From an uncultured Prevotellaceae bacterium (GTDB taxonomy: Bacteria > Bacteroidota > Bacteroidia > Bacteroidales > Bacteroidaceae), in assembly GCA_900317635.1 (NCBI GenBank), contig ONHN01000008.1:2583-65595 (forward strand): a DNA stretch of 63,013 nt, in the 5' to 3' direction. A program made the translations under genes and the position numbers. Positions within the stretch are counted from its first letter, which is position 1. The number at the start of each line of letters is the position of its first letter. The notes under the pieces are model-generated. The model worked only from the letters and a program-made list of their open reading frames with translations. It made no database searches and had not been told where the DNA came from. Below, in pieces: positions 1-63,013 of this stretch.

Positions 1-143
1 CGGGCGAGGCGCCTGCGCTCCCAGGGGGGGGCTACGCCTGCGATGTTTGCGGGCGAGGCGCCCGCGCTCCCAGGGGGGCTACGCCTGCGATGGTTGCGGG
101 CGAGGCGCCCGCGCTCCCAGGGGGGCTACGCCTGCGATTAGCG
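1..143. repeat. 47-bp GC-rich tandem repeat, three copies, continuing off the window edge
   Basis: Units begin at 1, 50 and 97, each with CGGGCGAGGCGC, then CTCCCAGGGGG, then GGCTACGCCTGCGAT. Unit 1 has one extra G in its G run. The array abuts a run of 7-bp repeats (148-194). A diverged single copy in reverse orientation lies at about 24665-24712. It is non-coding in my reading; open frames across it are low-complexity artefacts. Confidence 0.85.
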
Positions 144-9877: not shown

Positions 9878-9995
9878 ACGAAGGATACGAATGTTTGTGG
9901 CGTATTGCCAGTGCGTATACGAAAAAAAGGACACGAAGAGTTTAGCGCGTTGTGAGCCTATGGTTGTCACTTGTCACTTGCTACATGTCAACTTC
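9878..9995. repeat. Composite intergenic repeat: CCACGAA-type stretch followed by family A heptamers
   Basis: The stretch from ACCACGAAGGATACGAATG to GGACACGAAGAG (about 9875-9940) resembles 13810-13852 (ACCACGAATGGAGCGAATG ... ACACGAAGAC). Family A units TTGTCAC follow at 9964-9990, immediately beside the stop of the metallophosphoesterase gene (9998-10000). Confidence 0.5.
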
Positions 9996-15325: not shown

Positions 15326-15470
15326 GTTTACGAGTGACAAGTGACAAGTTACAAGTGACAAGTTACAAGTGACAAGTTACGAGTGACAAGTTACAAGTGA
15401 CAAGTTACAAGTGACGAGTTTGGCTACGTCAACGAACAAGTGCTACTGCAACTCGTCACTTGTCACTTGA
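15326..15470. repeat. Family A element, largest copy: 12 heptamers, core, inverted arm
   Basis: Twelve exact-phase 7-bp units run from 15334 to 15417, mostly alternating GTGACAA and GTTACAA. A 30-bp core (15421-15450) begins TGGCTACGTC and ends GCTACTGCA. The inverted arm ACTCGTC-ACTTGTC-ACTTGA (15451-15470) pairs with the left units. It lies between divergent genes in a 447-bp gap that otherwise holds two or three -7 promoter elements. Confidence 0.85.
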
Positions 15471-15699
15471 GTACTTCTGTGGGATGAAACGTAACGTTGA
15501 TTTTTTATGTGGCGGCAAAGATAGCAAGAATGGTGCATAATGTAATGCTTTATCTTTGTATTCTTTCCTCTTTGTAAAGATTTTCCGCAAGTATTGCTCT
15601 TTTTGTAAACTTGCCTTGCCATAATCCGCCAGTGAGATAGAAACTTTCCTAAGGAGAGAAACAATCATAATAAGCACAGCTTTTTTGCCAAAATCTCTG

Positions 15700-34083: not shown

Positions 34084-34134
34084 GACGTCGGCGTAGCCCA
34101 ACTCGTAACCCGTCACTTGTTACTCGTCACTTTT
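34084..34134. repeat. Family A element, core plus one arm
   Basis: The core in reverse sense (GACGTCGGCGTAGCCCA, 34084-34100) is followed by heptamer units ACTCGTA-ACCCGTC-ACTTGTT-ACTCGTC-AC. It lies between the dnaX start and the end of the ClC gene. A purine/pyrimidine-rich stretch (34147-34196, CCCTTTTGGGG and G-rich) separates it from the ClC stop. Confidence 0.7.
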
Positions 34135-34201
34135 TATTAGTATCTACTCCCTCCTCGCCCTTTTGGGGAGAGGGGGGCAGGGGAGAGAGAGGGGCTTCTC
34201 C

Positions 34202-36282: not shown

Positions 36283-36379
36283 GAAGTTATAAATCTCGGC
36301 GGCAAATGTACATTTACCGCCGAGATGATATACATTTCCCGCCGAGAAATATACATTTACCGCCGAGATTTATAACTTC
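36283..36379. repeat. Family B palindromic element, copy 1
   Basis: A 97-bp element with 20-bp perfect terminal inverted repeats (GAAGTTATAAATCTCGGCGG at the left end). Inside are one CTCGGCGG (36295-36302) and three CCGCCGAG words (36317, 36339, 36360) spaced 21-22 bp apart, separated by ATGTACATTT/ATATACATTT spacers. It can fold as one long hairpin or as smaller ones. A near-identical copy is at 46597-46690. It lies in a 504-bp gap upstream of the ClC gene that otherwise holds only the ClC promoter. Confidence 0.95.
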
Positions 36380-46596: not shown

Positions 46597-46690
46597 AAGT
46601 TATAAATCTCGGCGGGAAATGTATATTTCCCGCCGAGGTTTATATATTTCCCGCCGAGAAATGTACATTTCCCGCCGAGATTTATAACTT
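46597..46690. repeat. Family B palindromic element, copy 2
   Basis: A 94-bp element with perfect 20-bp terminal inverted repeats (AAGTTATAAATCTCGGCGGG). Word order matches copy 1: CTCGGCGG at 46608, CCGCCGAG at 46630, 46651 and 46672, spaced exactly 21 bp. It lies between the converging aat and fRMsr genes, where it could serve as a bidirectional terminator. Nothing else is seen in this 282-bp gap. Confidence 0.95.
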
Positions 46691-60413: not shown

Positions 60414-60515
60414 CAAGTAAGTGACGAGTTACGAGTGACAAGTGACGATTGACAAGTCTGGCTACGCCGACGGCAAGCGCATCTGCAACTCGTCACTCGT
60501 GACTTGTCACTCACT
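60414..60515. repeat. Family A element between tig and clpP
   Basis: Left heptamers (CAAGTAA-GTGACGA-GTTACGA-GTGACAA-GTGACGA-TTGACAA), core TGGCTACGCCGACGG ... ATCTGCA (60459-60487), right heptamers ACTCGTC-ACTCGTG-ACTTGTC-ACT. It begins 2 bp after the tig stop codon. Confidence 0.85.
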
Positions 60516-61270: not shown

Positions 61271-61378
61271 AACAAGTAACTTTTAAGTGACGAGTGACGA
61301 GTGACAAGTTGCAGCCGCGTTTGTTCGTCGGCGTACCCAAACTCGTAACTTGTCACTCGTCACTTGTCGCTTGTAACT
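61271..61378. repeat. Family A element between clpP and clpX
   Basis: Left heptamers run to 61310, the core is in the opposite sense (TGCAGCCGCG ... GTCGGCGTACCCA, 61309-61339), and right heptamers ACTCGTA-ACTTGTC-ACTCGTC-ACTTGTC continue to 61378, 13 bp before the clpX ATG. The inverted core shows that the core can flip relative to the flanking genes. Confidence 0.85.
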
Positions 61379-62725: not shown

Positions 62726-62836
62726 TTAAGTGACAAGTAAGTTAAGGAGTGACGAGTGACAAGTGACGAGTAAGGCTACGCCCTAATAAGTGCTGCTACA
62801 ACTCTTCACTTGTCACTCGTCACTTGTCACTTGTTA
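62726..62836. repeat. Family A element after clpX
   Basis: Left arm with AAGTGACAAGT and GTGACGA-GTGACAA-GTGACGA units (to 62772), core AGGCTACGCCC ... TGCTGCTACA (62772-62800), right arm ACTCTTC-ACTTGTC-ACTCGTC-ACTTGTC. Same layout as the copies after tig and clpP. Confidence 0.85.
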
Positions 62837-62873
62837 ATTCAAGTTTCTGAAGTTGTGATACGGGTGTGATAAA

Positions 62874-62967
62874 TGGTGCGCGAAGCGTACTGCACGTCAC
62901 AAAGTTCCACCCCAGACATGACTTATTAGTTATACATTCTTATCATGTGCGGTACGCTCTGCGCACC
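62874..62967. repeat. Family E inverted repeat, copy 2
   Basis: Left arm GGTGCGCGAAGCGTACTGCAC (62875-62895, read in parts) and right arm GTGCGGTACGCTCTGCGCACC (62947-62967, its imperfect inverse) match copy 1 at 42925-42988. No gene was found from 62642 to the window end. Confidence 0.7.
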
Positions 62968-63013
62968 GTCTTTCTCCTCCCGTCACCTACCGCGCATTCC
63001 TCTTCGCTTCGCT

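Follow-up and report, generated by a model that had tools for sequence, protein, structure and literature searches.

A dispersed intergenic repeat with inward-reading heptamer arms in an uncultured Prevotellaceae genome

Gaps between genes in an uncultured Prevotellaceae bacterium carry many copies of a repeat built from a degenerate heptamer, GTKACRA, whose 7 bp combine fixed and variable positions, and from a core that the copies share. The best explanation, to which we give a probability of about 0.63, is that this is a dispersed non-coding intergenic repeat that spread into short gene junctions, its arms then slipping.

Arrays, cores and copies in the window

The 63,013-nucleotide stretch that we analysed, hereafter the window, lies on contig C38 of the source assembly (G000; 2.42 Mb, 62 contigs, 85% complete). 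Units of the form GT[G/T]AC[A/G]A were present at all seven places where tandem GTGACAA, GTGACGA and GTTACAA units had been predicted, and the tandem pairs are beyond chance: the window holds nine tandem arrays of perfect units, while 200 first-order Markov sequences of the same length held no tandem pair. The original prediction staked its case on a genome-wide scan turning up further copies; a two-unit arm pattern (CTYGTMACTYGTMAC) gave 292 matches across G000 against none for the reversed control, and a core-plus-arm pattern gave 50, some of them overlapping.

Our detailed survey covered 215,896 bp of G000, comprising the window and stretches picked for carrying matches. It contains 174 of the 292 matches, in 79 clusters, which implies a rough figure of 130 clusters genome-wide. 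Counts of the four units in the surveyed stretches were 137 (GTGACGA), 126 (GTGACAA), 27 (GTTACAA) and 26 (GTTACGA). Among the 117 arrays, neighbours within 90 bp of each other faced inward 32 times and outward never, with six same-sense neighbours (five +,+ and one −,−); arm polarity is thus kept, as predicted. Combined with the unit steps seen at two loci below, this polarity bears out a dispersed intergenic family with inward arms that change by 7-bp units.

Four of the seven predicted places are two-armed (15327–15466, 60421–60510, 61287–61377 and 62749–62830) and agree with the expected layout of left units, core and inverted units; the other three (147–193, 9964–9977 and 34103–34130) are one-armed. 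Their parts are listed here, with trigger factor, ClpP and ClpX named from Pfam results; at gathering thresholds, Rfam reported two tRNAs only in the whole window.

124–146, + strand: core (GGCTACGCCTGCGATTAGCGCGG) adjoining a 47-bp GC-hairpin tandem in place of a left arm
147–193, − strand: one-armed copy with a right arm of about 6 heptamer units and no left arm
9964–9977, − strand: right arm only, 2 units, one-armed copy without a clear core
15327–15417, + strand: left arm, 13 units, 12 of them perfect
15418–15452, + strand: core, 35 bp, forward sense
15453–15466, − strand: right arm, 2 units
34087–34102, − strand: half core GTCGGCGTAGCCCAAC, reverse sense
34103–34130, − strand: right arm only, 4 units, one-armed copy, then TTTTTA
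60421–60455, + strand: left arm, 5 units, starting 9 bp past the trigger-factor ORF
60456–60489, + strand: core, 34 bp, forward sense, tig–clpP gap
60490–60510, − strand: right arm, 3 units, tig–clpP gap
61287–61307, + strand: left arm, 3 units, clpP–clpX gap
61308–61342, − strand: core, 35 bp, reverse sense, clpP–clpX gap
61343–61377, − strand: right arm, 5 units, ending 13 bp upstream of the clpX ATG
62749–62769, + strand: left arm, 3 units; a partial unit lies outside it at 62730–62737
62770–62802, + strand: core, 33 bp, forward sense
62803–62830, − strand: right arm, 4 units, after clpX

In the stretches surveyed, the shortest arms had 1 unit and the longest 14; unit number therefore varies as foreseen, but not within the limits of 3 to 12. 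Most arms of the two-armed set have two or three units, and across the 31 two-armed elements left and right lengths are uncorrelated (r = −0.04). The arms are inverted yet of variable length, and the ends of two-armed copies are not fixed. Alignment of 25 of the 31, leaving out six whose cores or arms were odd or truncated, gave the core consensus GGCTACGCC-(GACGA or CTA)-ACAAGCGC-nnCTGCAAC, in which the middle differs between loci and is followed by AAGCGC and then CTGCAAC.

On the contigs, 13 of the 31 cores read forward, 16 reverse and 2 have no assignable sense; relative to co-directional genes, sense is unbiased (11 same, 9 opposite, omitting the two without assignable sense). The core at 61271–61378 had been predicted to lie in the opposite sense and to be invertible by itself. 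It is indeed reversed (61308–61342), but because the arms are inverted repeats, inversion of the core is indistinguishable from turning of the whole element, and we reject separate core inversion as being the same as whole-element orientation. Stop codons did not explain the polarity either: in GTGACRA, GAACATT, GACCRTT and AGTAAAA a stop is confined to the inward strand, but GTTACRA has the opposite pattern and AAACATT has stops on both strands, which makes this an oddity and not a rule. A gene end overlaps the array at 5 of 49 nearby 3′ gene ends.

The family has other repeats for neighbours. By eye, a GC hairpin (GCGGGCGAGGCGCCCGCGCTCCCAG) or another repeated module stands next to many of the one-armed copies. 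At window positions 1–138 a GC hairpin (GGGCGAGGCGCCCGCGCTCCCAG) is repeated as a 47-bp tandem that ends in GGCTACGCC, which is also a core word of the GTKACRA family, and similar modules lie beside one-armed copies elsewhere. A further module, CTACTCCCTCCTCGCCCTTT-GGGGAGAGGGGGGCAGGGG, adjoins GTKACRA arrays at 34141–34195 in the window and at about 1540–1600 of L001 and 1420–1480 of L045. Two separate 21-bp tandem repeats, whose units (TACATTTACCGCCGAGATATA and TATATTTCCCGCCGAGATTTA) are related to each other, lie at window 36309–36374 and 46622–46686. AAACAWT with its variants makes up a second heptamer family in G000; one-sided AAACAWT/AAACRTT arrays lie on the minus strand at window 11247, 13878 and 56380, and several such arrays are followed on the inner side by a TTCGTG...CCTTCGTGGTTTC module. 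The two families meet in mixed elements with an AAACAWT-family arm on one side and GTKACRA on the other (L061 at 2942/3059 and 5629/5822, and L006), while a locus in a same-genus genome, G007, combines a GTGACRA left side with a CAATGTT right side; arms drawn from different heptamer families cannot pair.

Gene junctions with and without a copy

We placed the 79 clusters among genes called with a simple ATG-to-stop ORF picker, which makes gene starts approximate. Four lie inside a called ORF (at least 100 aa), six have no neighbour within the stretch and 69 lie between genes, in 52 co-directional, 11 convergent and 6 divergent gaps. All gaps of at least 30 bp, taken for comparison, divide into 91, 22 and 22 (135 in total), so that divergent gaps are depleted (p = 0.019, each cluster treated as one gap). 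Two-armed copies make up 29 of the 69 placed clusters and sit a median of 15 bp from the gene on either side. The 40 one-armed copies mostly have their outer end near a gene: it lies within 30 bp of one in 27 of 40, a number reached by none of 5000 random placements, and in 32 of 40 the inner end is the farther of the two from a gene. Gene ends abutted within 40 bp comprised 48 3′ ends and 29 5′ ends.

The arm pattern is patchy among relatives. In one draw of 61 genomes it occurred in four of the 36 from the same genus (G007, 7 matches; G023, 81; G024, 69; G026, 1), and it occurred in the other-family genomes G038 (6), G055 (38) and G058 (17). The reversed control matched 10 of the same 61 genomes, compared with 8 for the arm pattern, mostly with 1–5 matches but with high counts in G012 (114), G023 (22) and G048 (20). 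Matches in G012 are GAACATT arrays, whose elements are likewise two-armed around a different core; their pairs in 13 loci were 17 inward, none outward and 2 same-sense. The clpP–clpX gap of G010 carries AGTAAAA arms. Period-7 arrays were absent from 18 of 20 genus stretches scanned and present in G010 and G012. The other genus genomes are distant, the best match to tig–clpP–clpX among 58 having 77% DNA identity.

Comparison of flanking proteins matched 5 of 73 G000 gaps in about a quarter of G024, a portion partly picked for carrying elements. Four of the five matched G024 gaps were empty of an element and almost closed, two of them resting on a one-side flank identity of only 50–53%:

clpP–clpX gap: 7 bp in G024 against 130 in G000, flank identities 83/74%
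L030 gap: 12 bp in G024 against 111 in G000, flank identities 85/91%
L022 gap: −4 bp in G024 against 96 in G000, flank identities 50/76%
L070 gap: −7 bp in G024 against 40 in G000, flank identities 78/53%

We infer gain rather than loss from the short clpP–clpX gaps seen by eye in many relatives. The fifth matched gap, between genes whose proteins we read as nuo-like, holds an element in both G000 and G024, with the locus-specific middle of the core kept, the arms different and T/C mismatches between the arms kept in both species. Elsewhere, the L052 site is two-armed in G000 and one-armed in G024; the stop codon of its gene falls within the array in G024 and within a degenerate unit-like stretch in G000. 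The L041 site of G000 is also occupied in G023, where it is one-armed.

Two comparisons caught the arms changing length. A copy in an atp-like gap, also named from our reading of the proteins, is common to G023 and G024 (flank proteins 97% and 80% identical), with 2 against 3 units on the left, 4 against 6 on the right and near-identical core and flanks. The second comes from L233, a 4.85-kb contig of the MAG Bacteroidaceae bacterium isolate RGIG8882 (water deer omasum) and the only named match of the core-plus-arm scan, which is 97.1% identical to L069 of G000 over 2,547 bp. Its element has 5 units on the left against 4 in G000, 6 on the right against 8, and an identical core; in a 550-bp alignment the sole indels are one of 7 bp within the left arm and one of 14 bp within the right. 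As these run in opposite directions, the arms change in unit steps and do so separately. All seven matches in the genome to which L233 is assigned (G476) fall at one place (L233 3898–4009), and with no matches elsewhere the contig may have strayed in from a close relative of G000, perhaps by mis-binning; the comparison of the two sequences is independent of which genome L233 belongs to.

On the favoured reading, that of a dispersed intergenic repeat, a copy consists of two tandem arrays of the degenerate heptamer (GTKACRA), each of which reads inward from the gene next to it, with a core of about 33–36 bp between them. Copies would arise in or insert into very short junctions, an act suggested by the occupied and closed states of the same four junctions, and would survive where no gene is broken; they mostly avoid divergent promoter gaps, though the depletion is modest. 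The arms, which grow and shrink separately in 7-bp steps at two loci, would do so with replication slippage or unequal recombination as the likeliest mechanism. One-armed and mixed-arm copies suggest that an arm or core may later disappear or be swapped with another repeat module. Two-armed copies, if they are transcribed, would fold into very stable hairpins (computed at −47 and −59 kcal/mol) that are apparently tolerated in tig–clpP–clpX, with secondary consequences, if any, for mRNA ends or decay. The spreading agent would not obviously be the RAYT-like gene of G000, which has a different flanking repeat, or an RVT_1 reverse transcriptase, for which G000 gave no match.

Hairpins, movers and heptamer-rich genomes

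Units at mirror positions of the two arms were identical in 30 of 56 cases, with 37% expected from shuffled partners (p = 0.0026), which exceeds what two independently slipping neutral arms need. Single-position in-register tests gave p = 0.10 (position 3) and 0.04 (position 6) when cores read as a unit were accounted for, and 0.06 and 0.07, respectively, under the uncorrected register. The original prediction had named independent drift of the arms, to the point of lost pairing, as what would count against it, and half of this is seen. Drift is evident in the near-strain arms, which differ by one unit and by two in opposite directions, in the absence of a length correlation, in the prevalence of one-armed clusters and in mixed-arm gaps that cannot pair; the mirror-position match speaks against a loss of pairing.

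Predicted RNA folds of the clpP–clpX copy (−59.4 kcal/mol, z −8.8) and the tig–clpP copy (−47.1 kcal/mol, z −5.3) are far beyond those of shuffles; the long copy at 15326–15474, folded as DNA, did no better than shuffles (z −0.06). Such folds, the mirror-position match and the 52 of 69 placed clusters between co-directional genes would suit a folded RNA hairpin that is itself the selected trait, as an mRNA-processing, stability or differential-expression signal in operons. We consider this unlikely, given that 40 of 69 placed clusters are one-armed, that some arm pairs come from different heptamer families, that arm lengths change separately, that core sense is unbiased and that co-directional gaps make up 91 of 135 anyway; moreover, the consensus fold of 25 copies has 12 pairs with a compensatory change in only one, and because that fold is weak, the covariance model (R1) that we built was set aside. 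Runs of at least five T in 8 nt occur at 13 of 62 two-armed ends, compared with 9.9% of sampled intergenic positions (p = 0.007), so that some copies may terminate transcripts; 3′ gene ends are also abutted more than 5′ ends (48 to 29). That transcription terminators are what at least some copies represent is nonetheless hard to credit, as 49 of 62 ends have no T run, element ends are A+T-rich generally and copies lie between trigger factor, clpP and clpX, which are probably co-transcribed. Our terminator scan, which accepts loops of 3–8 only and is blind to these hairpins, lists none here. If a DNA- or RNA-binding protein used the arrays as its binding sites, the sharp word with its two fixed variable positions would be accounted for, but the word is missing from most relatives sampled, and unit number and arm presence vary freely; we find this reading scarcely credible.

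A non-autonomous transposon of the MITE or REPIN-like kind, mobilised by a specific transposase, would also leave inverted arms, copies dispersed in both senses, a common core and lineage-specific occupation, and G000 does have one Y1_Tnp gene. The array scan found no GTKACRA array in the Y1 locus (L213), where by eye GTGCGGTACGC hairpins, another repeat family, stand instead, and we reject the RAYT as mobiliser. Y1 matches over the cut-off occur in 26 of 58 genus genomes and the arm pattern in 4 of 36 same-genus relatives, and a 108-bp copy found no match among plasmids, leaving this origin improbable. Slippage by itself, with arrays growing de novo in each gap and no movement of an element, would explain the prominence of period 7 among tandem arrays in the scanned stretches, the unit-number changes and the published heptamer excess of bacteria (as cited in the available extract of PMC4692102). 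It is very unlikely, since a core of about 30 bp is common to dozens of gaps on many contigs and this requires copying, not independent growth.

The REP-like hairpins, GTGCGGTACGC-TCTGC-GCACCGC, flank the single Y1/RAYT-like gene (window 62840–63013; L213 1200–2550); the GTGCGGTACGC family matches further places on contigs C14, C33, C50 and C52, and the 3′ end of the Y1 gene is apparently duplicated downstream (L213). Two candidate makers of arrays were also discarded. RVT_1 is present in 18 of 58 genomes, and among six heptamer-rich genus genomes there was one match in G012 and none in G000, G007, G010, G023 or G024 (G000 being 85% complete and the other five 71–94%); a reverse transcriptase missing from five of six is not a plausible array maker. 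SbcD exceeded the cut-off in 44 of 58 genomes, including G000, G007, G012 and G023, and had no match in G010 and G024, both incomplete; loss of the SbcCD palindrome nuclease would be an inconsistent cause, as SbcD presence does not track arrays.

To see how far the word extends, we searched 395 Bacteroidota genomes for three units (CTYGTCACTYGTCACTYGTCAC) and found 938 matches in 10: 73 in G000, 192 in G182, 234 in G194, 215 in G202, 206 in G217, 11 in G238 and 1–3 in each of four others. The word had no match in G225, of the genus of G194 and G217, or in G186, of the genus of G182. The reversed word occurred in 8 of the 395, all other than those 10, with 48 matches in total. At the loci inspected from the nine genomes other than G000, its core was not seen by eye, save for GGCGTAGC beside an arm in G421. 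In IMG/VR, GTGACRA in three copies occurred in 47 contigs, at least four pairs of which seem identical in the surroundings of the array; the counts for three permuted heptamers were 2, 5 and 9 stretches, and that for the reversed word 49 stretches in 42 contigs. With the reversed word as frequent in viral contigs (49 against 47), GTGACRA is not privileged; a class of heptamers recurs, and GTGACRA is one frequent word of several. Array pairs in the 47 viral contigs were again inward (10 inward, none outward, 2 same-sense). PHROG matches were obtained for five of seven flanking proteins from five viral contigs. These were a major head protein beside the L360 array, an L350 neck protein, a protein with an Ig domain, a tail-fibre protein (weak match) and a protein of unknown function. 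Among arrays of these 47 contigs outside ORFs and outside the GTKACRA family, 49 had period 7, and 5, 2, 8 and 1 had periods 5, 6, 8 and 9; 16 control viral contigs, picked for another heptamer, likewise had period 7 as the commonest (23 against at most 3), and the excess therefore partly reflects choosing contigs by heptamer. Several different intergenic heptamer arrays (for example CAGGCTG, AGCTGAT and ACTAGGC) accompany GTGACRA in viral contigs L296, L330, L331, L350 and L359.

Heptamer-rich genomes and phage contigs tend to hold several heptamer words with inward pairs, and the tested word is absent from most of the sister species sampled. One doubtful but broader reading is that heptamer arrays mark a heritable, patchy genome-level activity, either a mobile system or a polymerase activity, that would lay down or amplify arrays in 7-nt steps at gene ends; the equal frequency of the reversed word in viral contigs led us to drop a privileged word from it. 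Whatever the agent, the family is a workable test bed for the heptamer excess: it offers numerous copies built on one core, junctions that are closed in a relative, strict inward polarity, sites common to species with changed unit numbers, and a near-identical contig with separate 7-bp and 14-bp arm steps. Sister species with hundreds of matches and with none could reveal an agent, if one exists; if there is none, this would be a clean case of near-neutral repeats filling operon junctions without putting essential pairs such as clpP–clpX out of action.

Comparison with known heptamer repeats

Degenerate heptamers on both sides of a stem, with lengths that change by slippage, are familiar from cyanobacterial STRRs and from P6b of the tRNA-Leu intron; these use other words, and one lies in a tRNA intron. 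The words GTGACAAGTGACAAG and GTGACGAGTGAC were not found in the set of open-access papers searched.

The prediction that no named element has this design did not stand. Inward heptamer pairs are published in Xanthomonas, where, in the available extract of Rehm et al. (2015, PMC4692102), GGGAATC repeats form paired arrays in convergent orientation, 70 in Xcc and 75 in Xac; the same extract cites heptamer excess in bacteria, with polymerase slippage as a guess. As described there, those repeats resemble ours in their 7-bp unit with variable positions, many copies, over-representation in non-coding DNA, scarcity between divergent genes, and variable length in a gene context that is mostly kept. 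The GTKACRA family shares the 7-bp unit, the inward pairs and a mainly intergenic position. It differs in its word, as the Xanthomonas word is GGGNATC, for which a G-quadruplex is proposed, whereas GTGACRA has no G-run, and neither GTGACRA nor GTTACRA contains a GG or forms a G-quadruplex word. No shared core is described for the Xanthomonas repeats in that extract.

Other families share fewer features. TAACTGA repeats of Beggiatoaceae, cyanobacteria and five Bacteroidetes are, in the excerpted account of MacGregor (2015, PMC4679880), intergenic heptamer arrays that are patchy across phyla and show 7-nt indels between close strains; they have another word than GTKACRA, and that account describes no core. 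The GTAG/CGTC-tagged REPs are likewise short, palindromic and extragenic, and lie mainly in co-directional and convergent gaps, but in the portion of Di Nocera et al. (2013, PMC3733652) available they measure 20–40 bp and carry GTAG or CGTC at one end; in our family, GTAG is found inside the reversed core (GCGTAGCC), away from the element ends, and the GTKACRA repeats do not flank the Y1 gene of G000, which sets them apart from a REP/RAYT system. The BrickBuilt MITE of Porphyromonas gingivalis, also of the Bacteroidales, is intergenic with tandem repeats and small inverted ends; as far as the extract of Klein et al. (2015, PMC4596501) goes, it differs in having a 23-nt unit, 19 copies, distances of 49–591 nt from genes and no inward heptamer arms. 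The kind of repeat described here is thus already known, from the inward heptamer pairs of Xanthomonas (PMC4692102) and the TAACTGA arrays (PMC4679880), in so far as those extracts describe them; what is new is the word GTGACRA, the shared core, the polarity that brackets gaps and the copies with mixed arms.
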